29,348 bases of DNA, from IMG/VR virus record IMGVR_UViG_3300046007_010531, positions 1-29,348 of that record, one strand, 5' to 3'. Positions 1-23,200 of this stretch are shown here, piece after piece (position 1 is the first letter of the stretch; the number at the start of each line of letters is the position of its first letter). A program made the position numbers and the translations under genes. Source of the stretch: a virus. The notes beneath the pieces were generated by a model. That model saw only the letters and a list, made by a program, of their open reading frames with translations. It made no database searches and had not been told where the DNA came from.

Positions 1-1348
1 AAGAAAGCGCCTTGGCCACGCTCCCAGATTGAAGCTTGCCCCATCGCTCTCGCTCCGCCGCTCGCTCCCTTTTTTGCTCGATCTGCTCGGGGGTCAATTG
101 CCGAACCTTGGGCTCTCTCCAGTCATCCTTCTGGCGGCCGTCCTCATCGACCTTGGATTGCCCTACGTCGTTGTCTCGCTTGGGTTTAGGTTCGGGCTTG
201 GGCAATTCACTGGCGAGCCCGTGAATCGGCATCAGCGCACCGCCCTTGAACTGCCCGCCAGTAACTGGACTGACCTCCCCGCCTGCTTTGGCTTTACGCC
301 AAACCGTCCCGTTTGGCGTGGTCCAAGTGCCGTCGCCGTTGTTGGTCCATGCACGAGGGTTATCTTGCTGCTGGCCTGGCTGCTTCATCCCTCTGGTAAT
401 CGCATCAAGCCAACTCAGAACCTGAGGCAAATTCTTGTCCGGAGCGACACCGATAAAGTTGCCATCCATCGTGTCCAACTGCATTCCGTAGTTTGCCATT
501 TCCGCCCGCTTCCAAGAATTGACGCGGCCCATGTGAATCCGCTTGCCCTTGGCTCTCGCCTGCTTGAGCATCTTGGTGAAATCGTCATTGAACCCAGACT
601 TCCTTAGCTGAGCATCAGTTGGGCGAAACACACCGTCAATTGGATTGAATCCGAGCTTCCACGCAGTTGAGCCGCCGATAAAAAGCACGTCGAAATCATC
701 CCACGGGATTTTCTCAGGGTGTTTTTCAATCCCGTCCTGCGCGGCAAACGCGACCGGCAAGCCAGACTTGCGAATCTCAGCAAGCCACGGCTTGGACCGC
801 TCCAGCGTTTTTTCCCAGTCTCCAACAACATCAGGCGCCACAACAAATTGAGTCTTGCCAGCCAATTCCGGCTTGCTGGCGACCTTGGCAATCAACGCCC
901 GAAACCTCTCGGGTGAAAACGGCTGTGTCCCGGTGAACTCCGAATAGACGCCGTTGTCCAGCGCGATGTGCGAATAATCCTCTGCGTGCCCGACGTAATG
1001 CTGCGTATAAGGCGTGATCAGCAAACCCAATCCAGCATTCTTTTTGGCTGCCTCACGGACCGGCGGCGAACTGTGGCCAGTTAAGTAACTGGTCGGCTTG
1101 TCGCCATCCCTTGGATGCCGCTGGCTGTCCCACTCCTGGTATCGCTTGGGAGCAAACTCGCCCGGCTTCTTGCCGTCGTGAGCCTCAGTTTCCCGAGGAT
1201 GGTCATCCTCGACCCAGTCAAAACTTTTTTGCCCCGACATTGGCCGGTGTCGCCCAAAACGCTCAACGCCAACTGCCCAGTGCGCGGCAAACCGCTCAGC
1301 CAATGCGACTGGCTTTGTAGGCTCCTGCCTATGATTCCAGCGAAACAT
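1..1348 (-). CDS. DpdA-like transglycosylase-fold protein (partial, cut at left edge)
   Basis: The frame is open from ATG 1348 to the window edge (449 residues, no stop). The central part reads like a tRNA-guanine transglycosylase (TGT) fold of the phage DpdA type, which places 7-deazaguanines in DNA. The visible motifs are ALDNGVYS (D131, matching the DSGGFQ aspartate of TGT), APDVVGD (D173/D177), FIGGS (225-226), IHMGRVNS (271-278) and LDTMDG (D292/D295, nucleophile region). Residues 40-85 carry two HPR(D/E) segments of the kind that flank domains in phage polyvalent proteins. After residue 330 come a Gly/Thr-rich segment and a charged coil. An AAGGG lies just before the ATG, and a stop precedes it in frame. 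It follows the portal and a small gene in the late operon. A TAGG-N6-CCTA palindrome covers codons 6-10. The fold call rests on motif recall; the substrate is inferred. Confidence 0.72.
   Translation of the reverse strand, partial: MFRWNHRQEPTKPVALAERFAAHWAVGVERFGRHRPMSGQKSFDWVEDDHPRETEAHDGKKPGEFAPKRYQEWDSQRHPRDGDKPTSYLTGHSSPPVREAAKKNAGLGLLITPYTQHYVGHAEDYSHIALDNGVYSEFTGTQPFSPERFRALIAKVASKPELAGKTQFVVAPDVVGDWEKTLERSKPWLAEIRKSGLPVAFAAQDGIEKHPEKIPWDDFDVLFIGGSTAWKLGFNPIDGVFRPTDAQLRKSGFNDDFTKMLKQARAKGKRIHMGRVNSWKRAEMANYGMQLDTMDGNFIGVAPDKNLPQVLSWLDAITRGMKQPGQQQDNPRAWTNNGDGTWTTPNGTVWRKAKAGGEVSPVTGGQFKGGALMPIHGLASELPKPEPKPKRDNDVGQSKVDEDGRQKDDWREPKVRQLTPEQIEQKRERAAERERWGKLQSGSVAKALS
1318..1331. promoter_or_regulatory. 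TAGG-N6-CCTA palindrome (site 1)
   Basis: The spacer is CTCCTG. It covers codons 6-10 of the DpdA-like gene (encoding RQEPT), immediately after the start codon. Confidence 0.65.
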
Positions 1349-1394
1349 AATGCCCTTTCATGCCAAGCCTCCCCCTTGGCTTGAACTGTAATTG

Positions 1395-1637
1395 CTACTG
1401 GTTAGGTTGCTGCGCAAGCGCGGCCGCCAATTTGGCTTGAATCTCCGCCTCCACTTGAGCACGCAGCGGGGCAAGTTTTTCGTCTCGCTGACGCTGTTTT
1501 TCTTCGTGGTCCAACCGATTTTGGTCGCTGTCAGAGGCAAGCCACTGTTCAATTGCGCCCATCATGTGGTCGTGCAGTTGATTTGGCTGATTTTCCAGCA
1601 AATCGTCGTACTGCTGCTGAGTCAGTTTATCAATCAT
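1395..1637 (-). CDS. small charged phage protein, unknown function
   Basis: This 80-residue protein starts with ATG overlapping the portal stop by four bases (ATGA), so it is probably translationally coupled to the portal. It is mostly polar and helical, with a Gln/Asn-rich N-terminus and an E/Q/R/A-rich heptad-like second half that could form a coiled coil. I recognise no family. Its position between the portal and the DpdA-like gene suggests a small head-assembly or accessory protein, which is inference from context only. Confidence 0.65.
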   Translation of the reverse strand: MIDKLTQQQYDDLLENQPNQLHDHMMGAIEQWLASDSDQNRLDHEEKQRQRDEKLAPLRAQVEAEIQAKLAAALAQQPNQ

Positions 1638-4600
1638 AAAACTTGCCTTCCTGCGGCTTTCAGGCGGTTATACAACTCCTCGGCAGCTTGGCCGAAGTCA
1701 ATCCGCTCTGTCGCTCGCTTCTTTCTGTTTGTCGTTGCAATCGGCTGCTCGTCTTCGTCTTCGTCTTCGTCGTCATTATCCGTAGACAAATCGTAGCCGA
1801 GCTTTTCCCAAAGCTCCTTTTCATAATACCACAGCGCCGCTTGAAATTCAGCGTTTGACATGTGCAAACCTTGCTCTTGCAAAATCTGCTGGGCGCGCTG
1901 CACCAAACCCGGGTTGGTCGGGTTTTCCGATTTATCGTTTCGCAGCAAATGCTCCCACTCGGACGAGTCTGGGGCAAGGTTCTGAGCTTTGAAGGACTGG
2001 TCCATTCCCTTTGCGGCGTAATTGATTTCGCTCGCGTCAGAATAGGTTTTTCCAGTTACTCTGTCCATCTTCTTGTAGGCTTTATGGCGCTGGTCAGCCC
2101 ACTGAGCCAACTGCTCGGTTCCCTCCAGATTACCACTGCGGTAAACATGCTTGCACTGCTGAATCAGTTGCCGCCGGTCCATCCCGTGCAGCCGCGGGTC
2201 GTTTCCTCGCATGTTTAGTAGTTCATTGTGAACGCGAACCGCCTGCTTTCTAATTGCATTGACGGAATGCTCGGTCAAGGTTCCGCGGAGCCGGCCCAGC
2301 GACCGCATGAACCACATATCCACCGTCACGGGGTCGTAATTTCCGTGCAAATTGTTGTAGAACGCGCCTATTTTTGGTCCAAAATACTGCGCGCCGAGCA
2401 CCCTGTCGCGGACTTTCAGGTCGCCAACACCCTTGCCCATTTCCTTGGCCAGTTCTTTGTTTTCCATTTCAGTAGACAGGAAGCGGACCATTTTTTCCCG
2501 CCCTTCCGGTGTGTGCCACTGAAACTTGTTCATCATCTTGTTCATCAGGTCTCGGTGCTGGGCCTGAGTTTTCAGCGTCTTGCCCTTGCCGTTGGCCTCG
2601 GTATTAAACTGGCCGTTCTCGACAAAATGGTCGAACTGCTTGACCGCCTCTTCTAGGTTATTAGTGACCTCGGTCGCCGAACTGTGAACGGCAACGCACA
2701 GCTTGAACAGGGCCGCGGCGTGCGGGTCATTTTGAAATCGATTTGGGTACAACTTGTTGAGCCAGCCCATCATTTGCTCAATCGACTTGTCGTACCATCC
2801 AGTTGCACCAGCTGTCTTGGCGTACCGAGAAACCTCGGTTGCCATGTCCTGAGAAATCCGCTCCCGGTGCTCGGGATTGCTCAGGTCCAGTTTGCCGCCC
2901 CGCTGCAAACTCCGGTCGTCCAGCGCTCTGGCCACATGAACGGCCAAAGGGGCGCCGTTCGGGTTGTCGGGGTTGGTCACGCGAAATGGCTCAGACCCTG
3001 AATGAACATCCACAGTATGGCGGTGGTCGGCAGCCTCGGGTGCTACCGGCCGGGCCAAGCCCTCAACCTTCTTCTTGTTCCACGCCTTGAAGAACGGGTT
3101 AATGGCTTCGCGATGAGGTTTTTGCCACGCCGCCTCCTTCTCTGCCCGGCTGACCTTTTTCTCTTTTTTTGCCGCAGCAGGCGGGGCATCCGCGCCAATT
3201 ACGGACGGAGCCCCTGCGGGTGTAGGAACCTGCCTATTGTTGTTCGGTATGACGCTTTGCGGCGCCACAGTTGGTGCGGCGGCCGCTTTCTGTTTTGCCT
3301 GCGCCGCAGCCCGAAGCTCTTTTCCGCTAATTGCCTTCGGAAGGTCAGGCTGAACCGGCATTGCTTGCTGAGTCGCCATCGCTGGCACGGCATCCTTGCC
3401 CACAGGCGCAGGCTTACCCTTGACGGCAGCGGCAGGCTTTGCTGTCGCCGGCACGTCCGCAAAGTCGTCCAGCATTCCAGACGCAAACCGCTCGACCGCA
3501 GCATTGGACTGAAACGCCATTTGACGGTCGTCGAACAGTTGGTCCTCGTCGTCATTAGTCAGCCCGTCGCCGTCGCCATCGCCAGGGACGCCCTGCGCCT
3601 GACCCATATCTGGGAACGGCACAAACTGCTGCGCCTGCCCGCCGCCCATCTGGGCCTGCATCATCATCGCCTGCTGGGCTAACTGCTGCTTCTGTGCCTC
3701 GTTGTTGATGCGGGCCGACTCCAAGCCTGGGTTATCCAAGAACTCTTCGCCATCGACCGGCGGAGAGGCTCCCAGTGCATCGTAAATGTCTTCGGTCCGA
3801 ATCTTGACGCCCATCGCCCACGCTGCTTGGTAGCTTGCGATTCGCTCCTGCGCATCAGGGCTCTCGGTGTCGATGACAAACCGCAAAAACACGTCATCCG
3901 TGCCGGGGAAATTCCACTGCTGAAGTGGCCGCAGCAGGTCGGTCGTGATTGTTTCTTCCAGATTCAACCCGTCGAAGCGGACAATGTCGTGGAAGGTGGC
4001 GAGGTGCGCGTCAGCCACACCCGAGCCCATGCCGGTGGCCTCGGCTTCGCTGGTCAACGTCTGACCGAGAATGTAGCGTTTAATTTTGTGTCCGAAAAAC
4101 GTCTGGAGGACGGACTGTAGCTCGCTGATTCCGCCCAGCCCAGGCTCGACAATCTGCACGCCGTACATATCGCCGTACTCGCCAGTCGGGATAGGGACCA
4201 GCACCACGCTCCGGCCGGGGGCTCCTCGCTCCTGCGCAGCCTTTTCGGTCCTCTCCTTGGCTTTCGGGTCGTGCGCGGGGTACTTCCAGATTTCAATGCC
4301 CAGCGCCGACCGCTCGACGTATTCGAGCAGCAGTTTCAGACTCTCCTGATAAGCCCACCACGTCCAGTAGATGCGGCTGCGAATGCCAACGCCGTTGATG
4401 CTGCCGGCTTTTTCTGGCCGCATGAAATCGCCATCTTCGATGATGTGCTTGTGAAGGCACATCCGACGCCGCTGCTGGCCGTCGAACCAGTAAACGAAGC
4501 CGTGCTGAGTGGCATCGACTCTCGACCGCTCGAAGCCTGCGTAGTCAATCCACTTGTCGTCGTTGGATTGTGTCGTGGGTCCGATGCGGATGCCGACTTG

Positions 4601-5269
4601 GTCTGGGTCGTACTCATACGAATCATCGGCGTACCGGAAAATCAGCTTGTCGCCGTGCCTGGGCTCCCACTTGCGGACAAAGATTCGCCGCTGCCCGCCG
4701 ATTGGCCGAACGCCCATTGTCTGAACGGTTGCTGTTTTGCCGTACCAAATTGCGTCCATCAGCGCGTACCGAAGTTTCATAAACTGCGGCGTGTGCTTGA
4801 GAATAGACGTGAGCTTGTCCGCCATGACCTGCGCATCGCTCTTGGGCTTCTTAAGCGCCGTGCGAATCCGCATCGCCGTTTCTTGGCTGTCAGCCTTGTC
4901 CAACGCATCGCGAAGAACGTCGTTGTCCACCGGCTGAATGTGCCAGTTCAGGAGCGCCACGCACCGCATCCGAGCCTCGACACACTCCATAATCATCGGC
5001 TCGTTGCGCATGATCTCGGCGTTGGCCGAACTGTGCATCAGCGCCTCATCGGCGTGCATGTAGGCGTTGGCCACCATGCCGTAACGGCCGACAAAACTAA
5101 ACATGTGCGGCATGTCAGGCTGGCCGAAATTCGGCGGAGCGCCCGGCCAAGCACTTGCCGGGTCGGTCTTGCTGGCCAGAGCCACGCTTAGCGGTACAGT
5201 CTGCGCCGAGAGGGGGTACTTGCTTGCGCGCCCGTTAAGGCGGCCTTTGACTATCGCTTGGGGGTCCAT
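1634..5269 (-). CDS. portal protein (Mu gp29/DUF935-like) fused to a large C-terminal polyvalent domain
   Basis: The protein has 1211 residues, more than twice the usual portal length. Residues about 56-510 look like a DUF935-type portal, the dodecameric DNA gate at one capsid vertex. Cues are the helical start with HADEALMHSS, the KLRYALMDAIWYGKT and HKHIIE segments, and the IKRYILGQTLTSEAEATG motif. Residues 510-760 are an Ala/Pro/Gln-rich linker with an EF-hand-like loop, DGDGDGLTNDDE, at about 564-575. Residues about 780-1150 form a second domain with GWYDKSIEQMMGWLNKLYP and FGPKIGAFYNNLHGNYDPVT, resembling a domain I recall from large phage polyvalent proteins (DUF7178 type, from memory). 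An acidic run lies near 1164. The ATG overlaps the upstream stop (TGATG). The portal assignment is firm; the role of the extra domain is unknown. Confidence 0.85.
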   Translation of the reverse strand: MDPQAIVKGRLNGRASKYPLSAQTVPLSVALASKTDPASAWPGAPPNFGQPDMPHMFSFVGRYGMVANAYMHADEALMHSSANAEIMRNEPMIMECVEARMRCVALLNWHIQPVDNDVLRDALDKADSQETAMRIRTALKKPKSDAQVMADKLTSILKHTPQFMKLRYALMDAIWYGKTATVQTMGVRPIGGQRRIFVRKWEPRHGDKLIFRYADDSYEYDPDQVGIRIGPTTQSNDDKWIDYAGFERSRVDATQHGFVYWFDGQQRRRMCLHKHIIEDGDFMRPEKAGSINGVGIRSRIYWTWWAYQESLKLLLEYVERSALGIEIWKYPAHDPKAKERTEKAAQERGAPGRSVVLVPIPTGEYGDMYGVQIVEPGLGGISELQSVLQTFFGHKIKRYILGQTLTSEAEATGMGSGVADAHLATFHDIVRFDGLNLEETITTDLLRPLQQWNFPGTDDVFLRFVIDTESPDAQERIASYQAAWAMGVKIRTEDIYDALGASPPVDGEEFLDNPGLESARINNEAQKQQLAQQAMMMQAQMGGGQAQQFVPFPDMGQAQGVPGDGDGDGLTNDDEDQLFDDRQMAFQSNAAVERFASGMLDDFADVPATAKPAAAVKGKPAPVGKDAVPAMATQQAMPVQPDLPKAISGKELRAAAQAKQKAAAAPTVAPQSVIPNNNRQVPTPAGAPSVIGADAPPAAAKKEKKVSRAEKEAAWQKPHREAINPFFKAWNKKKVEGLARPVAPEAADHRHTVDVHSGSEPFRVTNPDNPNGAPLAVHVARALDDRSLQRGGKLDLSNPEHRERISQDMATEVSRYAKTAGATGWYDKSIEQMMGWLNKLYPNRFQNDPHAAALFKLCVAVHSSATEVTNNLEEAVKQFDHFVENGQFNTEANGKGKTLKTQAQHRDLMNKMMNKFQWHTPEGREKMVRFLSTEMENKELAKEMGKGVGDLKVRDRVLGAQYFGPKIGAFYNNLHGNYDPVTVDMWFMRSLGRLRGTLTEHSVNAIRKQAVRVHNELLNMRGNDPRLHGMDRRQLIQQCKHVYRSGNLEGTEQLAQWADQRHKAYKKMDRVTGKTYSDASEINYAAKGMDQSFKAQNLAPDSSEWEHLLRNDKSENPTNPGLVQRAQQILQEQGLHMSNAEFQAALWYYEKELWEKLGYDLSTDNDDEDEDEDEQPIATTNRKKRATERIDFGQAAEELYNRLKAAGRQVL
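3223..3236. promoter_or_regulatory. TAGG-N6-CCTA palindrome (site 2), inside the portal gene
   Basis: The spacer is AACCTG. It lies in the linker of the portal fusion (encoding RQVPT), more than 2 kb from a start, so it would be a stoperator-type site or part of an internal promoter for the C-terminal domain. Confidence 0.55.
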
Positions 5270-5643: not shown

Positions 5644-5840
5644 TATCTCCCCTCCCACTTGTCGCCGTATTTTGCTTGGTAAAAGCCGTTCATCCACGCC
5701 TGTCGCTTTTCGCTTTGATTCACCGGACCAATCGACTTGCTTTTGTAGGGACATTCGCTGTCCGTTTGACCCGCAAGAAAAGCGGCTTTGCCCTGCTGGA
5801 AACAGTAACGCTCGTCCCACCTGCGAATCTGAAGGGTCAC
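5643..5840 (-). CDS. ribosome modulation factor (RMF)-like small protein
   Basis: This 65-residue protein matches the pattern of RMF/CrpP-type phage proteins: an N-terminal helix with GKAAFLAG, a central ECPYKS (the Cys-Pro-Tyr signature), and a C-terminal EKRQAWMNGFYQAKYG (the usual R-x-x-W-x-x-G-[WF] helix). Cellular RMF binds 70S ribosomes and promotes their dimerisation and hibernation. Phage relatives are common and mostly uncharacterised. The ATG overlaps the stop of the KTSC gene upstream (ATGA), and its own stop overlaps the next start. The family call is from motif pattern; a ribosomal role in this phage is inference. Confidence 0.65.
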   Translation of the reverse strand: MTLQIRRWDERYCFQQGKAAFLAGQTDSECPYKSKSIGPVNQSEKRQAWMNGFYQAKYGDKWEGR

Positions 5841-7048
5841 GGCCGCCCCCTGTCAGGCGCTCCTCGGTCTGGCCTTGATGGTCGCCCACGAAAATTCCGC
5901 CGCTCTTCCGGCAACGCGCTGTGTCCGTAGATGCGGCGTCCTGCTCCTTCGATAGCCAGTGTTCGAGAGCGAAAGCCCTGCTGGGTGACCTTGCGCGGGA
6001 TGTAGACGCCCTGCTGTCCGTCGAAGCTAACGACCTGCCCAGCCGCGAGCGTATAGCGAAACCGATGCCCGTAGGCAGTGCCGCGAATTCGCAAATCATC
6101 CCAAACCGCGCCGCCAGCCGATGGCGCGCGCACGATGCGCTCAAAAATTCTTGGGGGTACGTCGTAGTAAGCGTAAAGAGCGCCAGGCCCGCCAGTCTTG
6201 CCGCCAACGGTCCGGCCCAGTTCGCCCTTGACGTGCGTCCGACCGCCTGATTTGCTCATTCTCGCCGCGCGCGGGTTGATAGAATGCTCCTGGAACCGGA
6301 CGTATAGAATCGACCGGCGGTAATCGTACTGAAACGAATACACGTTGCTGCTGGCCGGCGTGCGAATCTCCGGCGTGACCGTAAGCTCTTGTTCTTCGTC
6401 GTCGTCGCCTTCCGGCTGAGTGACTGGACGCCGCGACTCCTCGGTTAGGTCGGGCGCAGCACTGGCCGAGGGCCGACCGGACTGGACGACCGGCTGGCCC
6501 AGCTGGTTGACTTCTGGCCCTTCCTCGCCTTCTTGGGTGTCCCAGAATGGACGCTGAGCAGGTTTAACTTGTCCGCTCGGCGTGATTGTGTAGCCAGCGT
6601 TTTCCAGCACTTCCCTCGCAGCGGTCTCGCCGCGCTGATAGCCGGACCAAGCAGGGTCTTTGCCGAGGATTTCGTACCCGTAACTGCGCAGCAAATCAGC
6701 CGCCATCTGCAACTGGTCGGCAGGTCGCCGCCTTCGGCCGATGGAAGCGCGAATCGCTTGTCCGATGGGGCCGAGGGAGCTGAGCAGCGCATTGACGCCC
6801 TGCATCGCCATGCCGCTGAGACTGTAGCGGTTGACCTCTCGCTGAAAGCGGTTAAGCGCGTTTCTGCCTGTTGCATCCCGCACAGCCCGGTTAAAACGCC
6901 GCTGTAAACCCGCAGGAGAGGCAGAGCTTAAGCCTCGGCGAGCCTTGCCTATCGCCCTGCCAAAGTCAGTCTGCGCAAACGCGCGGCGTGCCTGCGTCCT
7001 GGCGGCGCGGCTGGCTAACTGAAATAGCGGCGACTTTTGCTTGGCCAA
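5837..7048 (-). CDS. KTSC-domain phage protein
   Basis: This 403-residue protein starts at TTG 7048, preceded by a CCGAGG ribosome site about 8 bases away. Residues 1-110 are Arg/Ala-rich and helical. Residues 160-225 are a disordered Pro/Gln/Glu linker with an acidic run (GDDDEEQE). Residues about 232-325 match a KTSC domain: SNVYSFQYDYRRSILYVRF, then YAYYDVPPRIFERIVRAPSAG and a terminal aromatic pair. KTSC domains are short, often attached to nucleases or synthetases, and have no settled function. The tail is Arg/Gly/Pro-rich. It is the first gene of a subcluster behind a TAGG-N6-CCTA site with a TATACT -10-like box and a hairpin leader. It may be a virion or DNA-binding late protein (inference). 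Confidence 0.72.
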   Translation of the reverse strand: MAKQKSPLFQLASRAARTQARRAFAQTDFGRAIGKARRGLSSASPAGLQRRFNRAVRDATGRNALNRFQREVNRYSLSGMAMQGVNALLSSLGPIGQAIRASIGRRRRPADQLQMAADLLRSYGYEILGKDPAWSGYQRGETAAREVLENAGYTITPSGQVKPAQRPFWDTQEGEEGPEVNQLGQPVVQSGRPSASAAPDLTEESRRPVTQPEGDDDEEQELTVTPEIRTPASSNVYSFQYDYRRSILYVRFQEHSINPRAARMSKSGGRTHVKGELGRTVGGKTGGPGALYAYYDVPPRIFERIVRAPSAGGAVWDDLRIRGTAYGHRFRYTLAAGQVVSFDGQQGVYIPRKVTQQGFRSRTLAIEGAGRRIYGHSALPEERRNFRGRPSRPDRGAPDRGRP

Positions 7049-7083: not shown

Positions 7084-7097
7084 TAGGCTGTTTCCTA
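7084..7097. promoter_or_regulatory. TAGG-N6-CCTA palindrome (site 3)
   Basis: The spacer is CTGTTT. It lies 36 bases upstream of the KTSC gene start. Read leftward, the CCTA half runs into TATACT, a good -10 hexamer at 7080-7085, so a bound protein would cover the promoter. Confidence 0.7.
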
Positions 7098-8108: not shown

Positions 8109-9175
8109 TGAGTAGGTTCCTGCCTATCGTTTTGAGGTTCAAAAATATTCAGCAATTTATAAGCCACCACTTCGGCCACCTGCGGAACTATGGCGTTTCC
8201 GAGGCATCTAAGGCGGTCCACTCGCTTGGGAACCCCATGAGCCACTCGACCCACGTCGGGTTCAGTTGCCCACCAGTCGGCGAAGGCGAGTCGTACTCGT
8301 TGGATTTCGTCGCTCCCCGCTCGGCTGCGTAGTCCAAGCGGTCTCGAAGGCTGCCCGTCTTGCCCGCGCCCTTCCCGTCTGTCGCTGTTGGTGTCGGGAA
8401 CAGTTTCACCACCATCCCTAAGTCCACATTCTTGCCCCGCTCCAATTCCCGCCTGGACCCTTCCTCTGTCCGGCTTCCCTTTGTGCCGTCCGTGCTTCTT
8501 GGTGTCGGCCACATTGCTACAGATTGCTCTAGTTTGGAAGGAATCGTTCTTCCGGTTTTGCTCAGATGCTTTTTGACTTGCTCTAGTGTCGGAAGCGACT
8601 CCCTGCACATCGCTTCCGCGGCACGAGGTGTTGGCCACATCGCCGCTCGGCAACTGGGCCACTTCTGCATGCTCGGCGAAAGCTGATTCGCCGTTGCGGT
8701 AGGCGAGAATAAAAACCCTGTCCCTGATATGCGGCGCACCAACGGCGGCAGCTGGTATGCAATGCCATTCACCATCAAACCCGAACGAGGCCAGCGTCCC
8801 GAGAACTCGGTCCAGTCCCCGAGTAAGCAGCCCTGCCACGTTTTCCAACACCACAGCTCGGGGTCGTAATTCGCAAACCAAGCGAATGGCCTCGAAGAAA
8901 AGCCCGCTTCTGGCTCCCTCAAGTCCTGCCCCTTTCCCGGCGTAGGAAATGTCCTGACAGGGAAAGCCGCCGATGATGCAATCGACCCGCTCAAGATTGT
9001 GCCTTCCGCACTGCCGGATGTCTCGCTCGCGGTGCACGTCTGGCCAGTGTCGCTTAAGGATTTTGGTTGCGTAGTCATCGATTTCTACCTGCCACTTCGT
9101 TTCAAACTTTCCGGTGCGCTCAAAACCAAGCTCGAACCCGCCAATCCCCGAAAACAGACTGCCTATCGTGTACAT
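8105..9175 (-). CDS. DNA C5-cytosine methyltransferase (Dcm-like)
   Basis: This 356-residue enzyme has the classical m5C motifs in order: LFSGIGGFELGFE (motif I), GGFPCQDIS (motif IV, catalytic C73), ENVAG (motif VI, 111-115), HIRDRVFIL (motif VIII) and GNAIVP (motif X, 326-331). Residues about 165-300 are the target-recognition region, with repeated D-x-A/ADT-type units common in phage Dcm proteins. It would methylate cytosine at position 5, probably protecting phage DNA from host restriction; the target sequence cannot be read here. The ATG lies 13 bases inside the end of the PD-(D/E)XK-like gene. The +1 frame of the same strand holds a second long protein-like frame, described separately. 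No restriction enzyme is evident nearby. Confidence 0.92.
   Translation of the reverse strand: MYTIGSLFSGIGGFELGFERTGKFETKWQVEIDDYATKILKRHWPDVHRERDIRQCGRHNLERVDCIIGGFPCQDISYAGKGAGLEGARSGLFFEAIRLVCELRPRAVVLENVAGLLTRGLDRVLGTLASFGFDGEWHCIPAAAVGAPHIRDRVFILAYRNGESAFAEHAEVAQLPSGDVANTSCRGSDVQGVASDTRASQKASEQNRKNDSFQTRAICSNVADTKKHGRHKGKPDRGRVQAGIGAGQECGLRDGGETVPDTNSDRREGRGQDGQPSRPLGLRSRAGSDEIQRVRLAFADWWATEPDVGRVAHGVPKRVDRLRCLGNAIVPQVAEVVAYKLLNIFEPQNDRQEPTQ
8113..8126. promoter_or_regulatory. TAGG-N6-CCTA palindrome (site 4)
   Basis: The spacer is TTCCTG. It encodes the last codons of the methyltransferase (RQEPT) and overlaps the ribosome-binding region of the next gene, whose ATG is at 8108. Confidence 0.7.
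8188..9078 (-). CDS. possible overprinted frame inside the methyltransferase gene
   Basis: This 296-residue frame lies wholly within the methyltransferase on the same strand. Unlike a random shadow it contains recurrent phrases (MWPTPRAAEAM, MWPTPRSTDG, FPTPTATDGKG) and FSGRWPRSGLMVNGIAYQLP near its middle. It ends with GGQLNPTWVEWLMGFPSEWT. From memory, proteins with exactly these phrases are annotated as stand-alone genes next to phage Dcm genes. No strong ribosome site precedes its ATG. It could be a true second product, a frameshift product, or only the mirror of a conserved gene. Confidence 0.28.
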   Translation of the reverse strand: MTTQPKSLSDTGQTCTASETSGSAEGTILSGSIASSAAFPVRTFPTPGKGQDLREPEAGFSSRPFAWFANYDPELWCWKTWQGCLLGDWTEFSGRWPRSGLMVNGIAYQLPPLVRRISGTGFLFSPTATANQLSPSMQKWPSCRAAMWPTPRAAEAMCRESLPTLEQVKKHLSKTGRTIPSKLEQSVAMWPTPRSTDGTKGSRTEEGSRRELERGKNVDLGMVVKLFPTPTATDGKGAGKTGSLRDRLDYAAERGATKSNEYDSPSPTGGQLNPTWVEWLMGFPSEWTALDASETP

Positions 9176-9551: not shown

Positions 9552-9565
9552 TAGGCTGCGCCCTA
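9552..9565. promoter_or_regulatory. TAGG-N6-CCTA palindrome (site 5), leftward side of divergent region
   Basis: The spacer is CTGCGC. It is 33 bases upstream of the leftward gene at 9519. Read leftward, TTGAAA lies just before it, and CCTA continues as TATGTT. It forms a pair with the site at 9628 in the 159-base divergent gap. Confidence 0.75.
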
Positions 9566-9627: not shown

Positions 9628-9641
9628 TAGGATGCTACCTA
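9628..9641. promoter_or_regulatory. TAGG-N6-CCTA palindrome (site 6), rightward side of divergent region
   Basis: The spacer is ATGCTA. It is 38 bases upstream of the rightward ATG at 9679, with TTGTCT just before it and CCTA running into TATCTG. The gap otherwise holds A/T runs and no gene. Confidence 0.75.
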
Positions 9642-9963: not shown

Positions 9964-9977
9964 TAGGTTCGTGCCTA
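9964..9977. promoter_or_regulatory. TAGG-N6-CCTA palindrome (site 7)
   Basis: The spacer is TTCGTG. It begins seven bases after the stop of the 9679 gene and lies 37 bases before the ATG at 10014, so it separates two co-directional genes. Confidence 0.7.
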
Positions 9978-10247: not shown

Positions 10248-10560
10248 CGACGCAATCACCATTAAACGGCTGGAAACCCTTCTAATTCCGGCAGGCTGGG
10301 ACGGCGACCCGAAGAGCAGTCAACTGGAAAGCGTGCGTTGCTGCGAATGGCAAGACCAAGCAGTGACCTTGTATGGCTCCTACTGGAGAGACCGGCTGAT
10401 TGCGGCGTGGTACGACTTGGATTGTGTTGTGATTGCCAGCTGGCCAAACTATAGGCTAAATCCTACGGGTGAGGTGAATGAGCTTCGCGGGCAGTCAGCC
10501 AAGTTTCGCCGAGAGTTTCGGCCTCGGCAGCTGGCCAGTCTGGGGGTGTCGCATGACTAA
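10240..10560 (+). CDS. small phage protein, unknown function
   Basis: The 106-residue protein starts within the end of the 10014 gene. It is Trp-rich and looks beta-rich (CCEWQDQAVTLYGSYWRDR, LIAAWYDLDCVVIASWPNY), followed by a basic C-terminus. A TAGG-N6-CCTA palindrome is embedded in its codons for NYRLNPT. The stop overlaps the ATG of the ribbon-helix-helix gene. I do not recognise the family. Confidence 0.65.
   Translation: MSNDAITIKRLETLLIPAGWDGDPKSSQLESVRCCEWQDQAVTLYGSYWRDRLIAAWYDLDCVVIASWPNYRLNPTGEVNELRGQSAKFRREFRPRQLASLGVSHD
10452..10465. promoter_or_regulatory. TAGG-N6-CCTA palindrome (site 8), inside a coding region
   Basis: The spacer is CTAAAT. It lies in the 3' third of the 10240 gene, 88 bases upstream of the ribbon-helix-helix gene start, and could control an internal promoter for it. 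Confidence 0.6.
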
Positions 10561-13903: not shown

Positions 13904-13917
13904 AAGGCAGCTTCCTA
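13904..13917. promoter_or_regulatory. degenerate operator, AAGG-N6-CCTA
   Basis: One base differs from the palindrome (A for T at the first position); the spacer is CAGCTT. It sits in the 109-base gap upstream of the leftward gene at 13828, where a promoter is expected. Confidence 0.45.
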
Positions 13918-15572: not shown

Positions 15573-15586
15573 TAGGTAAAAGCCTA
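15573..15586. promoter_or_regulatory. TAGG-N6-CCTA palindrome (site 9)
   Basis: The spacer is TAAAAG. The TAG of one half-site, read on the minus strand, is the stop codon of the initiator gene. The site lies 95 bases upstream of the DnaB start. Confidence 0.65.
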
Positions 15587-16386: not shown

Positions 16387-16430
16387 AAAAAGCCCGCTCC
16401 GAGCTGGTGACAGGCAGACTCGGGCGGGCT
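16387..16430 (-). terminator. intrinsic terminator in the leader of the replication operon
   Basis: AGCCCGC-t-CCGAG (16391-16403) pairs with CTCGG-GCGGGCT (16419-16430) around a 15-base loop. Read leftward, five to six Us follow. It lies only 18 bases upstream of the initiator ATG. A second perfect hairpin, CGCGGC-TAA-GCCGCG (16435-16449), precedes it in the leftward transcript. It may end the transcript of the 17117 regulator, or act as an attenuator. Confidence 0.7.
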
Positions 16431-16520
16431 GAAACGCGGCTAAGCCGCGAAAAAAGATTGAATTAATGCTGGCTGTCACACCGGCGGGAAAAGTCTAGTG
16501 CGACAGGCCTTTCAAATCAA

Positions 16521-16534
16521 TAGCTTTGTTCCTA
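16521..16534. promoter_or_regulatory. degenerate operator, TAGC-N6-CCTA
   Basis: One mismatch from the palindrome; the spacer is TTTGTT. It lies 37 bases before the XRE gene at 16571, and CCTA runs into TATGAT, a good rightward -10 hexamer. Read leftward, TTGCGA and TATTGA flank it at 16-base spacing, so it may serve divergent promoters. Confidence 0.5.
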
Positions 16535-16570
16535 TGATTCGCAAGTCTAAAGGAATCAAGGACTTACGTT

Positions 16571-16867
16571 ATGGATGTAATTGTTCGTGTCGCGAAAAAT
16601 GTCAGGCTCAAGCGGATTTTGGCCGGCATGACGCAGCAAGAATTGGCCACAAGGATGAGCGACCAAACTGGCAGCCGCTGGGCGCAGCCACAGGTCAGCG
16701 ACATTGAGCACGGAAAAGCCGCTGTAACGCTGATGACACTGGAAAAACTGGCGGCCGCTCTAGAAGTTACCGTTGCTGAATTGATTCAAATTCCGCGGGC
16801 CCGCGACATTGCCAAGCTCGGGAAAAAAGCTGAGCTTATCAGCCGTTCCAGCGAGGCTCGCGGGTAA
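16571..16867 (+). CDS. XRE-family transcription regulator
   Basis: The protein has 98 residues. Residues about 8-68 form an HTH_3 domain: NVRLKRILAGMTQQELATRM, then QVSDIEHGKAAVTLMTLEKLAAAL. No peptidase or dimerisation domain follows, only a 30-residue basic tail, so it is not a LexA-like self-cleaving repressor. It is convergent with, and overlaps by 29 bases, the second XRE gene on the opposite strand. A degenerate copy of the TAGG palindrome lies in its promoter region. It is one of two candidates for the protein that binds these palindromes; which of the two is repressor or antirepressor cannot be told. Confidence 0.85.
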   Translation: MDVIVRVAKNVRLKRILAGMTQQELATRMSDQTGSRWAQPQVSDIEHGKAAVTLMTLEKLAAALEVTVAELIQIPRARDIAKLGKKAELISRSSEARG

Positions 16868-17117
16868 ACAGGACCGCCACAGGCTGCTGAAGCAGTTTGG
16901 CGATTTTTTCGAGCGTTTTTAGCTGAATGTCGCACCTGGCTGTCTCAATAGCCGTGTAAGTTGGCTGAGCCATCTTCATCAATTCAGCCATTTTGGTGGC
17001 AGTAAACCCCATTTCGAGGCGAATTTCGCGAATGTTTTGCACTACCCTTTTGTGCAAATCGCTGATTTTAGACGGTTTTGTGGTCCTTCGGTCCAATCGC
17101 CCGTTTCTGACGGTCAT
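16839..17117 (-). CDS. XRE-family transcription regulator (candidate operator-binding repressor)
   Basis: The protein has 92 residues. A basic N-arm (about 1-22) is followed by an HTH_3 fold: VVQNIREIRLEMGFTATKMAELM, then QPTYTAIETARCDIQLKTLEKIAKLL. A perfect TAGG-N6-CCTA palindrome (17117-17130) covers the ATG and the bases just upstream, the expected place for autorepression. Homodimers of this fold bind 4-6-4 palindromes in lambdoid phages (434 type). No cleavable C-domain is present. It is convergent with the 16571 gene, giving a 29-base antisense overlap that could make the two mutually exclusive (inference). Confidence 0.85.
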   Translation of the reverse strand: MTVRNGRLDRRTTKPSKISDLHKRVVQNIREIRLEMGFTATKMAELMKMAQPTYTAIETARCDIQLKTLEKIAKLLQQPVAVLFTREPRWNG

Positions 17118-17130
17118 AGGTGGTTTCCTA
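17117..17130. promoter_or_regulatory. TAGG-N6-CCTA palindrome (site 10), over an XRE start codon
   Basis: The spacer is TGGTTT. Its first T is the first base of the start codon (complement) of the leftward XRE gene, so binding here would block initiation of that gene's expression. Confidence 0.75.
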
Positions 17131-17172
17131 GTCTATTGACGAAAGAAAACCCACCAACTAGGGTGGGGTGAG

Positions 17173-17262
17173 TGCGGATAATAGGAGTCGAACCTACACG
17201 ACCTTGCGGTCACTAGAACCTGAATCTAGCGTAGGTTAATTCCTATCTTCGATACGACCCGC
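17173..17262 (-). tRNA. tRNA-Leu(CAG)-like element; candidate attP
   Basis: The minus strand folds as a class II tRNA: anticodon arm CTAGA-TTCAGGT-TCTAG (anticodon CAG, Leu), variable arm GACC-GCAA-GGTC, T-arm GTAGG-TTCGACT-CCTAT, and acceptor GCGGGT with ATCCGC (pairing extends to 8 bp with GTGCGGGT). The D-arm region is abnormal: it is longer than usual and contains the TAGG-N6-CCTA palindrome in place of a normal GG loop. A canonical 3' half beside an integrase gene is the usual picture of an attP copied from a host tRNA. It could also be a divergent phage tRNA. Confidence 0.6.
17232..17245. promoter_or_regulatory. TAGG-N6-CCTA palindrome (site 11), in the tRNA-like element
   Basis: The spacer is TTAATT. 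It occupies the D-arm of the tRNA-Leu-like element, 118 bases upstream of the integrase ATG. Confidence 0.6.
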
Positions 17263-17362
17263 ACAGATGGACCGAAAGGAAAGGGTTTTAACCCGCCAGC
17301 AGACGGAGAAGATTGCTGTCCCGCCTCACGGATGCCTACCCTGTTTTAGTGGAGGCTTACCA

Positions 17363-18232
17363 ATGCTTTTGTCTCAGTTTTTGGTTTCCTACTCGCTCCA
17401 GCGCGAACTAACGGAATCGTCCGTCGAACAGTACCGTATCGCCATCAATTGTTTTGATTTGTGGATTGGCCACAAAGCATCAATTGAAGAACTGACCGAT
17501 GACGCGGTGAATCAATTTTTGATTGACTATGGCCGGAACCGAAGACCGCACACCGTCACGTCCAAGCGAAGAAGTCTGCTGGTGCTCTGGCGAGCAATCG
17601 CCGACCAGCATGAAATCACCGCGCCGAAGAGAATCCGAAAAATCAAAACGTCACCAACGCCGCGTGACGTTTGGTCGGCCGAAGACGTGAAGCAAATTGT
17701 TTTGCGTCTTCGGTACAAAACCGGACGACTGCCAAAGATTGGCGTCAGGAGCGGAGATTATTTTGCTGGCCTTGTGCTTGCAGCCTGGGAGACCGGGTTG
17801 AGGCTTGCTGACCTCGTCAACCTGACTCGCGACCACTTGAGCAAGCCCGGCTGGTTTGGCATCACGATGCAGAAGACCCAGCTGCCGCACTGGTGCAAGC
17901 TGCACGACCAAACGCGGCATCTGATTCTTGGCACGTTTGACGACGCGCCGCCTCGGGCGCTGTGCTGGCCAGACTGGGACGCTCGCACTGCAAAAGCTGG
18001 CTACAAGCACCTGCGAGCCGAAATTATGCAAGCTGCCGAGGCTGTTGGCCTATCGGCCAGCGACGGTCCCTTCAAAAAACTGAGGCGGTCGTCAGTCACG
18101 GCAGTTGAAATGATTGCCGCCGGGCAGGGTCAATTTCACGCCGGCCACACCAGCGCGGTGACAACGCAGAGATGGTATCTATCGGACGAGACTCGGCTGA
18201 ACCGGCCAATTCCTCAAGAAATTCCAGTTTAA
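17363..18232 (+). CDS. int: tyrosine recombinase / integrase
   Basis: The protein has 289 residues from ATG 17363, which has GGAGG eight bases upstream. The frame is open back to 17267, but that part has no domain signal. The N-terminal SAM-like core-binding domain is at about 1-85. The catalytic domain carries R147 (ETGLRLADL), K171 (QKTQL), R241 in KKLRRS, H262 (HAGHTS) and the nucleophile Y272 (QRWYL). The first His of the usual H-x-x-R box is Lys. It would insert and excise the phage at the tRNA-derived site next to it. The leader between the element and the ATG has no other gene. Confidence 0.88.
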   Translation: MLLSQFLVSYSLQRELTESSVEQYRIAINCFDLWIGHKASIEELTDDAVNQFLIDYGRNRRPHTVTSKRRSLLVLWRAIADQHEITAPKRIRKIKTSPTPRDVWSAEDVKQIVLRLRYKTGRLPKIGVRSGDYFAGLVLAAWETGLRLADLVNLTRDHLSKPGWFGITMQKTQLPHWCKLHDQTRHLILGTFDDAPPRALCWPDWDARTAKAGYKHLRAEIMQAAEAVGLSASDGPFKKLRRSSVTAVEMIAAGQGQFHAGHTSAVTTQRWYLSDETRLNRPIPQEIPV

Positions 18233-18254
18233 GAAAAAAACCAGTCCGTCTATG

Positions 18255-18284
18255 TTGACCTGGCTATAGGTTCCACCCTATCAT
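18255..18284 (+). promoter_or_regulatory. promoter for csrA with operator in its spacer
   Basis: TTGACC (18255-18260), an 18-base spacer, and TATCAT (18279-18284) form a sigma70-like promoter. The TAGG-N6-CCTA palindrome fills the spacer and overlaps the -10, a classical repressor position. CsrA starts 45 bases later. Confidence 0.65.
18267..18280. promoter_or_regulatory. TAGG-N6-CCTA palindrome (site 12), csrA operator
   Basis: The spacer is TTCCAC. It lies between the -35 and -10 boxes of the csrA/recombination operon promoter. Confidence 0.8.
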
Positions 18285-18328
18285 GCCGAAGTTAATCAGG
18301 GATTTGGTTTTCTTAAGGAGGACAAGAA

Positions 18329-18511
18329 ATGTTGGTTCTTGGTCGTGATGTTGGTGAATCGGTTTTTATCGGTGACGTGGAAGTTGTGGTGCTAAAGCAC
18401 AACGGCAAGAAAATGCGACTTGGCATTCGCGCTCCGAAGGACGTGAAAATCCTTCGAGCCGAACTGGTGGCAAATCCCGCGAGCACCGAAAACGCCGACG
18501 ATTCAAAGTAG
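18329..18511 (+). CDS. csrA: CsrA/RsmA-like RNA-binding translational regulator
   Basis: This 60-residue protein is clearly CsrA: MLVLGRDVGESVFIGDVEV at the start, then NGKKMRLGIRAPKDVKILRAEL. The conserved Leu4 and Arg44-equivalent (ILRAEL) RNA-binding positions are kept. CsrA dimers bind GGA in hairpin loops near ribosome sites and block or alter translation and decay. Ser replaces the usual Ile after GE. AAGGAGG before the ATG is strong. It heads the rightward recombination operon (22 bases before the exonuclease gene) under a promoter carrying the phage palindrome. Phage-borne csrA is known but uncommon; it may retune host or phage mRNAs (inference). Confidence 0.93.
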   Translation: MLVLGRDVGESVFIGDVEVVVLKHNGKKMRLGIRAPKDVKILRAELVANPASTENADDSK

Positions 18512-18532: not shown

Positions 18533-19405
18533 ATGACAGTGACAGTGCGAGATAGAACAAAGCGAATCGGCGCTTCTGATGCCGGCGCAATCTTGGGCCT
18601 GAGCCCCTACAAAAAACCCTACGAGGTCTGGCTGGAGAAAACCAACCAAGTCGAGCCGTGGGAAGGAAACGAGGCGACCCGGGCCGGGAAAAAGCTGGAG
18701 TCGTTGCTTTTGGAGGAGGCAGAGTTAGACCTGGGCGACCTTGCATGGGACGTGTTTTGCCCGTCTCCCTACGGCGAGCCGATTGCGGCAACCCTCGACG
18801 CACAAGTGATTTCAACCGGCGACGTGGTGGAGTGCAAGACCTCGGGCATGACCGGAGGCCCGGTGGTTGGCTACTGGGGCGAAGAGGAGACGGACCACAT
18901 CCCAGAAGAGTATTTGGTTCAGACCCAGATTCAAATGTACTGCTCAGGGGCCGAGCTTGCGCACGTTTATGCCTATCTCGGCAAAGCAATCAAGTCGGTT
19001 TACCAAGTGCGGTATGACCGCCAGCTGGCCGAGTCAATCGCTGAGACGCTTGCCAAGTGGTGGGAGAAGCATATCGTCGGCGGAATTGCGCCTGACTCAA
19101 CGGGCGCTCTGCCGGACCTGCTTAAGCGAGTGCGAAGGCAACCAGAAAAGATTATCGAGGTTGGCCAGGAATCCACGTTTCAGTTGCGGTCGGTCATTGA
19201 CGATATGGCTCAGGCCAAAGACCGTCGCAAGGAGATTGAGGAGCAAATCGAGCTGATGCAGGGCCAGTTGATTCTTGCTCTCGGTGACGCCGAGGCCGCC
19301 AAGCTTGCTGACGGAACAAGCATTACCTACATGCTGACCAATCGTAAAGGCTACACCGTCGAGCCTAAGTCTTACCGGACCCTGCGAATCAAGGAGCGCA
19401 AGTAA
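18533..19405 (+). CDS. YqaJ-family phage recombination exonuclease
   Basis: The protein has 290 residues and AGGAG before its ATG. The lambda-exonuclease-like YqaJ domain carries IGASDAGAILGLSPYKKPYEVW (about 12-33), AATLDA (Asp, about 85), VVECKT (E-x-K catalytic pair, about 100) and EEYLVQTQIQMYCSGAE (about 125-141). The C-terminal third is a coiled, Glu/Lys-rich region. It resects double-stranded ends to give 3' single strands for the annealase encoded next to it. The stop overlaps the RecT start (TAATG), so the two are coupled as in other exo/annealase pairs. Confidence 0.92.
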   Translation: MTVTVRDRTKRIGASDAGAILGLSPYKKPYEVWLEKTNQVEPWEGNEATRAGKKLESLLLEEAELDLGDLAWDVFCPSPYGEPIAATLDAQVISTGDVVECKTSGMTGGPVVGYWGEEETDHIPEEYLVQTQIQMYCSGAELAHVYAYLGKAIKSVYQVRYDRQLAESIAETLAKWWEKHIVGGIAPDSTGALPDLLKRVRRQPEKIIEVGQESTFQLRSVIDDMAQAKDRRKEIEEQIELMQGQLILALGDAEAAKLADGTSITYMLTNRKGYTVEPKSYRTLRIKERK

Positions 19406-20274
19406 TGAATGCAGTAATTGAAAAACCAAAGCTTCTCAGTGTCATGGCCGCAAGGCTCGGTGTAGAGCCCGAGAATATGCTGCGCATCCTAAAAAACACC
19501 TGCATTAAGCCGACTCGTGGTGGCAAGGAGGCCACCAACGAGGAGGTGCAGGCGTTCTTGATTGTGGCGAATCGCTACGATTTGAACCCGATGACTCGCG
19601 AAATTTTCGCGTTCGAGTCTAACGGGGCAATCATCCCGATTGTTTCAATTGACGGCTGGGCAACGCTCGTTAATCGCAACGAGCATTTTGACGGCTGCGA
19701 CTTTGAGACGGCGCACGGGGCCGACGGGAACCTTCTAAGTATCACTTGCCGTATCTACGACAAGCGGCGGACTCGTCCGATTGCTGTCACTGAGTATCTG
19801 GCCGAGTGCCAGCGACCCAGCCAGCCGTGGCGAACCATGCCGCACCGGATGCTGAGGCACAAGGCTTTCATGCAGGCCGCTCGCCTTGCGTTTGGACTGT
19901 CGGGCATTTACGACGAGGAGGAGGGGCTGCAAATCGCCAAAAACGAAATGCAGGTCGAGTCGCCAAGGATAACCACGGCGGGCACTGCGGGCCTGCGGGA
20001 TAGGCTGCTACCTACTCAGGCACGAGAAGAGCCGGCCCAGGAAAAGCAAGACGAAGCCGTTGAACCGATTGTGGAACACGAACCCGAGGCGGCCAACCAA
20101 AGCAGTTTGTGGGGCGACGAGGCTCCCGACTTTAGCCAACTGTTTTCAACCGCGCAGACCGCAAAAGCGGCGGGCGTCTTGGTCAACCAGCTTGCTGCGG
20201 CCCATCCAGACCACGGCGAGGCGATTGAAAAGGCTTACGAAAGCCGCCTGAAAGATTTCAGGAAGGCAAAGTAG
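19405..20274 (+). CDS. recT: RecT-family single-strand annealing protein
   Basis: The protein has 289 residues. The RecT/Bet core spans about 8-180: VEAFLIVANRYDLNPMTREI-like helix (EVQAFLIVANRYDLNPMTRE), VSIDGWATLVNRNEHFDG, and the PHRMLRHKAFMQAARLAFG helix. The C-terminal 100 residues are acidic and variable, with a short end helix. It coats 3' single strands from the YqaJ exonuclease and anneals them. A TAGG-N6-CCTA palindrome is embedded at the end of the core (codons RLLPT). A clear terminator follows. Confidence 0.92.
   Translation: MNAVIEKPKLLSVMAARLGVEPENMLRILKNTCIKPTRGGKEATNEEVQAFLIVANRYDLNPMTREIFAFESNGAIIPIVSIDGWATLVNRNEHFDGCDFETAHGADGNLLSITCRIYDKRRTRPIAVTEYLAECQRPSQPWRTMPHRMLRHKAFMQAARLAFGLSGIYDEEEGLQIAKNEMQVESPRITTAGTAGLRDRLLPTQAREEPAQEKQDEAVEPIVEHEPEAANQSSLWGDEAPDFSQLFSTAQTAKAAGVLVNQLAAAHPDHGEAIEKAYESRLKDFRKAK
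20001..20014. promoter_or_regulatory. TAGG-N6-CCTA palindrome (site 13), inside recT
   Basis: The spacer is CTGCTA. It is in mid-gene, about 260 bases before the recT stop and not near a start, so it would act as a stoperator rather than a promoter operator. Confidence 0.6.
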
Positions 20275-20368: not shown

Positions 20369-20659
20369 ATGCTCAGGCAAGGTGAAATTGATTTCGACGG
20401 CCAGACTTACGCAAAAGATTTAGACCAGCAGCGACTGAGCGGCCAGCTGCTCGCAGTGCATTCTCTCATGTCAGACCACCAGTGGCGAACATTGGCAGAA
20501 ATCGTCTGCTTGCTTGGCAAGGGAAGCGAAACCGGCGTTTCCGCCAGGCTTAGAGACCTGCGAAAGCCACGTTTCGGATCGCTGACGGTTGAGAGTCGGA
20601 GGCGGCAGCCTAGCGGTCTTTGGGAGTACCGGATTACGGAGAACGGAAATGCAACTTGA
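20369..20659 (+). CDS. winged-helix-like phage protein
   Basis: This 96-residue protein begins 25 bases after the terminator, with GGGAG upstream. HQWRTLAEIVCLLGKGSETGVSARLRDLRKPRFG and the closing LWEYRIT read like a winged helix: two helices with an ARLRDLR recognition helix, then a beta wing. I recall similar small phage proteins in early regions. It probably binds DNA; the target and role are unknown. Since it lies behind a terminator, it needs its own promoter or read-through. Confidence 0.7.
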   Translation: MLRQGEIDFDGQTYAKDLDQQRLSGQLLAVHSLMSDHQWRTLAEIVCLLGKGSETGVSARLRDLRKPRFGSLTVESRRRQPSGLWEYRITENGNAT

Positions 20660-20747: not shown

Positions 20748-20750
20748 GCG

Positions 20751-22265: not shown

Positions 22266-23111
22266 ATGAGAATCTTAAACCTTGGAGCCGGCGTCCAGTC
22301 AACGACGCTTTTTCTGATGCTGATTAACGGCGACTTGCCGCCGGTTGACTACGCCATTTTTGCGGACACGGGCGACGAACCGCAGGACGTGTACCAGCAC
22401 CTCGAATTCCTCAAAACGCTTGGCGGGCCGGAAATTGTCGTTTGTCGGGCAAGCGAAACAAGCCTTGGCGATAACCTCAAAAACGGCATGAACGCCACCG
22501 GCCAATGGTTTGTTTCGATTCCGGCTTATACGGCTGACGATGTTGGCAAGCCGCTTGGAATCGGTCGCCGGCAATGCACCGCCGAATACAAGATTAAGCC
22601 AATCGAAAAGGCGATTAGACAACTTGCTGGACTGGAAAAGGGCCAGCGTAAACCGAAGGAACTGGAAATTACGCAGTTGTTTGGATTGTCGTTTGACGAG
22701 CCTCGGCGTGTGGACAGGGTGCGGACGCGGTTCATCGGTCGGGCTGGATGGCGTGCCGAGTTCCCGTTGTTTGACGAATTTATGACCCGCAGTGACTGCT
22801 TGGCGTGGCTTTCAAAGCGACTTCCCGGCTACACAGTGCCACGTTCTGCCTGCGTGTTCTGCCCGTACCGCAGCGACGATGAGTGGCTGAGGCTTAAGGA
22901 GACGGACCGGCAAGGCTGGAATCGAGCGGTCGAGATTGACGAGGCCATGAGAGACGAATCAAGCCGCTGCACAAAAGGCATGGAATCGAAGCAGTATGTG
23001 CATAGAAGCTGCCAGCCGTTGGCCTTGGTGCAGTTGCAGGCCAAACCGCCTGACAAGCAGATGAAGTTTCAGTTTTCGCAGATGGACTGCGAAGGCATGT
23101 GCGGCAACTAA
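22266..23111 (+). CDS. PP-loop (PAPS reductase/adenine nucleotide alpha-hydrolase-like) phage enzyme
   Basis: This 281-residue protein has GGAGG before its ATG. The fold cues are MRILNLGAGVQSTTLFLM (P-loop-like nucleotide site), YAIFADTGDEPQDVYQHLEFL, GRRQCTAEYKIKPIEKAIR and SACVFCPYRSDDEWLRLK (Cys pair). This is a common phage branch of the adenylation superfamily that includes PAPS reductase, DndC and tRNA thiolases. It activates a substrate with ATP; which substrate is unknown. It is not the QueC type that would directly feed 7-deazaguanine synthesis. It lies in the early rightward region before NinG. Confidence 0.8.
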   Translation: MRILNLGAGVQSTTLFLMLINGDLPPVDYAIFADTGDEPQDVYQHLEFLKTLGGPEIVVCRASETSLGDNLKNGMNATGQWFVSIPAYTADDVGKPLGIGRRQCTAEYKIKPIEKAIRQLAGLEKGQRKPKELEITQLFGLSFDEPRRVDRVRTRFIGRAGWRAEFPLFDEFMTRSDCLAWLSKRLPGYTVPRSACVFCPYRSDDEWLRLKETDRQGWNRAVEIDEAMRDESSRCTKGMESKQYVHRSCQPLALVQLQAKPPDKQMKFQFSQMDCEGMCGN

Positions 23112-23186
23112 CAGCCGATGCAGCCTTTAACAACGCAGTAAAACACGATTCAGTAACGAAAATACCCCTTTTTTTATTGCAAACCA

Positions 23187-23200
23187 TAGGTAGGAGCCTA
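23187..23200. promoter_or_regulatory. TAGG-N6-CCTA palindrome (site 14)
   Basis: The spacer is TAGGAG, so the site itself contains the ribosome-binding AGGAG for the NinG-like gene that starts at TTG 23205. Confidence 0.7.

Follow-up and report, generated by a model that had tools for sequence, protein, structure and literature searches.

A dispersed palindrome, TAGG-N6-CCTA, as a probable operator network in an uncultured temperate phage

What purpose might be served by fourteen copies of one short palindrome in a single viral genome? The question is raised by IMG/VR virus record IMGVR_UViG_3300046007_010531, whose positions 1 to 29,348 were analyzed as a whole and are called the window (29,348 nucleotides). 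The window covers part of the genome of a temperate phage and includes portal, terminase, DnaB, integrase, CsrA, YqaJ exonuclease, RecT, and NinG genes. The palindrome TAGG-N6-CCTA is scattered over it, and an earlier note made from the letters had proposed a repressor/stoperator system. The present analysis suggests that the palindromes are, very probably, operators of a dimeric phage-encoded regulator of the Cro/CI (XRE) type, and most likely they serve as docking points at which the phage's own switch protein holds lytic genes off. Two small regulators, named XRE98 and XRE92 after their 98 and 92 residues, are the candidates.

Fourteen perfect sites were detected, all at exactly the coordinates reported earlier, against 0.08 expected (100 dinucleotide-preserving shuffles, largest count 1). 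The excess is greater than the earlier note claimed, because its expectation of 0.45 assumed uniform bases. Shuffle controls in the window and in three related phages (G009, G007, and G022) rule out chance or base composition as the source of the sites. As had been noted, the spacing of the arms is fixed; TAGG-Nx-CCTA at all other spacings from 0 to 30 gives 0 or 1 match each in the window. The lone match at spacing 7 (17182-17196) is, by its coordinates, the T-arm of a tRNA fragment, and its spacing, one base off that of the operator, is probably a coincidence. The flank preference was also reproduced: a purine precedes 14/14 sites and a pyrimidine follows 13/14. The core is RTAGG-N6-CCTAY, with half-sites about one helical turn apart.

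Ten of the 14 sites lie inside -100 to +35 of a gene start (background 0.173, p 1e-5), and nine are not wholly within a gene (background 0.107), by our own list of 39 hand-chosen frames, some with uncertain starts. The statement that most sites are at starts therefore holds for ten sites and fails for four (3223, 9552, 15573, and 20001). A profile trained on motif-bearing records also picks 13904, 16521, and a weaker 26137; the first two are near-matches beyond the 14, at places where relatives carry operator-like sites. The sites and the genes named at them are as follows.

1318..1331, perfect, 5' end of gene 2-1348 (minus), near its start; no counterpart there in G009
3223..3236, perfect, within the portal-containing gene
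7084..7097, perfect, upstream of gene 5837-7048 (minus); last TA common with a -10-like TATACT
8113..8126, perfect, over the ribosome site of gene 7359-8108 (minus)
9552..9565, perfect, intergenic
9628..9641, perfect, upstream of gene 9679-9957 (plus)
9964..9977, perfect, upstream of gene 10014-10247 (plus)
10452..10465, perfect, directly upstream of gene 10478-10747 (plus)
13904..13917, near-match AAGG-N6-CCTA, upstream of gene 12638-13828 (minus); profile score 18.9
15573..15586, perfect, about 100 bp upstream of the DnaB gene
16521..16534, imperfect TAGC-N6-CCTA, between the divergent XRE98 and replication promoters
17117..17130, perfect, over the XRE92 ribosome site and start codon
17232..17245, perfect, next to the attachment-site (attP) core, where the integrase promoter should lie
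18267..18280, perfect, within the csrA promoter spacer
20001..20014, perfect, within the RecT gene
23187..23200, perfect, containing the ribosome site of the NinG-like gene
1634-5269, minus, portal-containing gene, holding site 3223
14117-15478, minus, DnaB gene, in a replication operon with DUF1376
19405-20274, RecT gene, holding site 20001
23205-23678, NinG-like gene, its ribosome site contained in site 23187

Are these places maintained in other phages? Terminase and XRE searches gave 25 related records, 17 of which contain the motif. The motif is missing from eight: G011-G013 (terminase 72%), G014-G015, and G023-G025. Of these, G011 and G013 span no more than some 5 kb, G014-G015 are distant XRE92-like matches, and G023-G025 are distant XRE98-like matches. 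Grouping at identities of at least 99% joins G001-G003 to the window, G006 and G021 to G009, G005 to G004, G008, G010, G017, and G018 to G016, and G020 to G019, leaving seven distinct motif-bearing viruses: the window, G009, G004, G016, G019, G007, and G022. These represent four lineages, with G009, G004, G016, and G019 (about 82-89% alike over longer alignments) counted as one; DNA identity among the window, G009, G007, and G022 is 69-74% wherever they can be aligned. Stretches of G009, G007, and G022, the last a fragment, contain 10, 8, and 8 perfect sites vs 0.05-0.10 expected. A host search, made as a single scan of genomes with the terminase alignment, yielded nothing beyond a 27% stretch in a Helicobacter assembly, and further scans with integrase and XRE profiles gave no new phage.

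Many operators hold their place between relatives while the spacers differ. Perfect copies are found again at the integrase start (G009, G007, G022, G005, G016, and G020; absent in G012), upstream of DnaB (G009, G007, G022, and G005), at gene 5837-7048 (G009/G006, G007, and G004, with TATAAT), at the NinG start (G009/G021 and G007), at the XRE92 start, and inside the recombinase gene. The XRE92-start site is found in all compared TAGG phages holding the region except G007, and in G022 it ends just ahead of the ATG. At the place of 13904, G022 and G007 have a perfect site, and G009, G005, and G004 have an ATAG-N8-CTAT variant. The csrA-promoter site is present as imperfect versions in G009, G020, G007, G022, and G012. 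With regard to site 3223, G009 offers a near-match, AAAGGAACCTGCCTAT, at 22179, some 20 bp past the stretch aligning with the portal-containing gene. The place of site 8113 is empty in G009, G007, and G004.

The many palindromic copies, two of which flank the attP core, would also fit a part in centromere function, packaging, or recombination in place of transcriptional control. Such a role is scarcely probable given the strong link of the sites to promoters and starts. Twelve of the 13 perfect sites of G009 are in the first 26 kb of its 65 kb, and a 20-kb tail-side stretch contains one, along with some imperfect matches listed by the profile; this scarcity also counts against such signals. 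No ParB family appeared in Pfam scans of 30 window proteins, a subset of the frames that includes several products without match (12638-13828 and 20369-20659 among them).

The promoters provide the closest view of how the sites may act. The hexamers beyond the window were read by eye, and the calls are of consensus promoters only.

16492..16520, minus, leftward replication operon promoter TTGATT-N17-TAGACT, towards DUF1376-DnaB
16511..16538, plus, XRE98 promoter TTCAAA-N16-TATGAT
18255..18284, plus, promoter TTGACC-N18-TATCAT of the csrA-exonuclease-recT operon
18329..18511, plus, CsrA homologue (Pfam), a presumed regulated gene

The sites, the conservation of many of them at orthologous places, and their fit to the -35/-10 spacers of XRE98 and csrA are direct observations. 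In the window and in G009 (TTGACT-N17-TATATT), G007 (TTGACG-N17-TATATT), G022 (TTGACA-N18-TATATT), and G012 (TTGATG-N17-TATCAT), the csrA spacer contains either the operator or an imperfect form of it, and the final TA of the site makes up the first two bases of the -10. The XRE98 operator is likewise located between -35 and -10, with its final TA also belonging to the -10; it is imperfect in one half in the window, G009, G005, G007, G016, and G019. Its other end shares a T with the -35 of the leftward promoter, which adjoins the operator at the same offset in 7/8 records; G022 is similar there, with only a degenerate ATAC-N8-GTAT at the shared place and its best-scoring site 28 bp further upstream. 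This places the operator center some 42 to 44 bases ahead of the transcription start expected for the leftward promoter (spacer 16-18); lambda CI activates from roughly such a distance. Several earlier readings are borne out: site 17117 extends as far as the A of the XRE92 start codon ATG, site 18267 fills a -35/-10 spacer, and a final TA is common to site and -10-like hexamer at 7084 (TATACT), 18267 (TATCAT), and the near-match 16521 (TATGAT). The phage-encoded CsrA homologue is also the first gene of the recombination operon in the window, G009, G007, G022, G020, and G012.

Ribosome sites are covered at NinG, XRE92, and gene 7359-8108, and the phage has a csrA gene, both of which would suit palindromes that act in the RNA by folding into hairpins there, perhaps together with the CsrA of the phage. 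This explanation is nevertheless rejected as highly improbable, because two conserved sites, at XRE98 and csrA, sit in promoter spacers, upstream of any transcript from those promoters. CsrA needs a constant GGA in the loop, whereas here the arm sequences are invariant and no constant GGA appears in the loop.

The operator inside the recombinase gene appears to be maintained at the DNA level. The peptide (K/R)(D/N)RLLP occurs in the recombinases of the window, G009, G021, G020, G016, G007, and G022 (six viruses), and in all of these genes the Arg is AGG and the Pro is CCT followed by A, while nearby residues differ (D or N; T, K, or S). Given the codon usage of the window, a single gene would make this choice with a probability of about 0.002-0.005; these values are not independent, because the genes are related. 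The counterpart in G012, LRAKLLPK, is encoded by TTG CGG GCA AAG CTG TTG CCC AAG, without a site. By eye, no -10 follows the recT site. Upkeep of this kind by codon choice makes a roadblock role plausible, and we infer that the site serves as a roadblock or for storage. A codon-constrained operator bears on the question of whether palindromic repressors also act as roadblocks. The recombinase itself is RecT-like in the window and G009, and its N-terminal part is quite different in G007, G022, and G012; a C-terminal LLP linker is common to the recombinases of all five (counterparts L040 and L045).

Is the binding protein encoded by the phage or by its host? Sister phage G012, syntenic with the window, has the exact attP core and both XREs at 38-41% identity. 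It contains no perfect TAGG-N6-CCTA but three copies of ATAG-N8-CTAT vs 0.01 expected: one upstream of csrA, one at XRE98, and a third at 6530. Its XRE98 operator is ATAGCC-N4-GGCTAT. The operator of G012 is, as judged by comparison, altered while the promoters kept their place, and a variant operator at the same promoters favors a phage-encoded binder. Thus the clade may be regarded as a natural experiment in the joint change of specificity of a repressor and its dispersed sites.

A host regulator, such as a LexA-type SOS repressor whose sites are exploited by phages, has one point in its favor. Neither Peptidase_S24 (the self-cleaving C-terminal domain of the CI/434 type) nor Peptidase_M78 (the metalloprotease partner of the ImmR/ImmA type) was found in the six records searched, all possibly incomplete and with G006 repeating G009; induction might therefore be sensed by the host. 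A host binder is hard to square with the operator change in G012, if the hosts are alike: there the attP core is identical while the perfect site is replaced by a variant at the same promoters. That sites occur at the start codon of XRE92 itself and at the promoter of XRE98 itself also speaks for a phage protein, and a host SOS box is not expected inside recT or at NinG. A host regulator is therefore considered unlikely.

The phage-encoded candidates are the following.

16571..16867, plus, XRE98, HTH_3 regulator, 98 aa, favored candidate binder
16839..17117, minus, XRE92, HTH_3 regulator, 92 aa, second candidate binder

A search with PF01381 found exactly two proteins over the cut-off, XRE92 and XRE98, in each of the window, G007, G009, G012, and G022. 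G006 and G004, where the region is missing, had none over the cut-off, and G009 and G006 each showed one sub-threshold match near the small terminase. Structure models confirmed helix-turn-helix folds and nothing beyond. The XRE92 model resembles C-proteins, HigA/HipB antitoxins, and SinR; the XRE98 model resembles NHTF, C-proteins, and the lambda and 434 repressors. The solved repressors and C-proteins among these bind their operators as dimers. The earlier proposal that one of the two XREs is the binder gains indirect support from their being the sole HTH_3 proteins over the cut-off in five records. If a phage regulator binds, XRE98 is slightly preferred by its position, because it occupies the usual place of CI and faces away from the replication operon, with a shared operator between them.

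Other candidates were rejected. A ribbon-helix-helix-like protein (10478-10747), so labeled by our own reading and empty in Pfam, has no match in the motif-keeping G007 and G022, the latter a fragment. The C5 DNA methyltransferase (8105-9175), which would make the palindromes methyltransferase or restriction sites, has no match in the motif-keeping G009 and G007.

Several points weigh against an operator network bound by one of the XREs. The Foldseek E-values are weak (best 2.4e-3 and 9.3e-4), as is usual for small helix-turn-helix folds. The two proteins co-occur in the records holding the region, and presence cannot tell the binder apart. The argument from G012 takes the hosts to be identical or closely similar, and the recognition helices of XRE92 and XRE98 hardly differ between the TAGG phages and G012. 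The operator at the XRE98 promoter is never a perfect TAGG-N6-CCTA in the TAGG phages compared. Sites 1318 and 8113 and the group 9552-10452 lack a one-to-one match in relatives. Even so, a repressor-operator network is strongly supported by the comparison with relatives and by the variant operator of G012.

If a dimeric phage regulator occupies these sites, the csrA-exonuclease-recT operon, the integrase gene, and the regulator's own gene would be closed to RNA polymerase. Where XRE98 and the replication operon share an operator, the regulator would repress XRE98 and either block or contact the polymerase at the divergent promoter. Sites without a visible promoter, inside recT or over ribosome sites, could be elongation roadblocks or a store of protein for looping. 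XRE92 would then be a Cro-like or Cox-like partner beside attP, should XRE98 be the binder.

How might this network be connected with integration?

17172..17229, minus, probable attP core, 58 bp, 3' half of a tRNA, between XRE92 and the integrase
17267..18232, plus, tyrosine-type integrase, assigned by synteny and attP; Pfam SAM-like matches weak, below cut-off

The interval 17172-17229 is probably the attP core. Related phages carry it unchanged in 11 stretches, the motif-less G012 included, and G009/G021 differ at two bases, both in the variable arm, with pairing kept by eye. By eye, the core reads as the 3' half of tRNA-Leu(CAG); ARAGORN reported no tRNA, and Rfam only a sub-threshold tRNA-Sec match (E 0.081). 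Operators 17117 and 17232 flank it, one of them 1-2 bp off. A terminator-like hairpin lies at 17167-17150 (minus), between the tRNA fragment and XRE92; four such hairpins occur in 16400-18400 vs 2.9 expected. After integration, XRE92 would stand behind the restored tRNA, past this hairpin. A bolder proposal, unlikely as it stands, is that one protease-less short XRE governs both transcription and integration, with attP, besides the integrase gene, gated by dimers at the flanking operators and read-through from the tRNA-Leu, past a terminator, feeding XRE92 in the lysogen only. If true, the lysogeny switch would be set by integration, not self-cleavage.

Among the neighboring genes, 22266-23111 is PAPS-reductase-like (PHROG 424). 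The minus-strand terminase more likely starts at the Met at 12212 than at the listed TTG at 12329, because a relative has a stop ahead of the Met. The window provides a concrete lysogeny-switch candidate for an uncultured phage clade; its integrase and XRE98 have no match among 50,697 annotated phage records, and the motif strings searched were in no paper of the literature examined.

How does the network compare with known systems? As in 434 and lambda CI-Cro, there are HTH_3 (XRE) proteins, here identified by Pfam, a short palindromic operator, and one operator common to divergent promoters beside the regulator gene (7/8 records at the same offsets); as at lambda OR, the site adjoins the -35 of a divergent replication operon. 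The 434 operator has a 14-bp layout, and the 4-6-4 geometry fits the 434-like arrangement put forward earlier. Unlike 434 and lambda, no clustered OR1-3 was seen and no S24 domain found in the records searched, and the sites are genome-wide. The conserved inverted repeats of phiC31 and the c1 operators of P1 are dispersed operators of one master repressor, but their sequences and repressor families differ from those here. Many copies of one motif (14 vs 0.08, and 17/25 records) and sites at phage promoters, as far as consensus promoters go, are the traits of a dispersed network. In SPbeta, the 15-bp repeat SPBRE was first spotted by in silico work at numerous promoters of the phage and was afterwards shown to be the operator of MrpR (YopR), a master repressor with a tyrosine-recombinase fold. 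The repeated element at many promoters is similar here, whereas the candidates are HTH_3 proteins. Mycobacteriophage L5 (cluster A) has more than 20 stoperators genome-wide, at promoters and short intergenic gaps, bound by one repressor; each is an asymmetric, orientation-dependent 13-mer with predicted monomer binding. The spread of many copies over a temperate phage genome, at promoters and short intergenic spaces, is shared with L5. The present sites differ from those of L5 in being 4-6-4 palindromes, some in coding sequence, with short single-domain XREs as candidates. Because L5 sites are asymmetric and oriented with transcription, while the arms here are perfect inverted repeats, the L5 mechanism as such is not transferable; of the stoperator idea, the seemingly DNA-level maintenance of the intragenic recombinase site survives. 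On sequence grounds, then, the operator network appears to be real and to belong to the dispersed-operator kind represented by L5 and SPbeta, as a family that seems not to have been known before.

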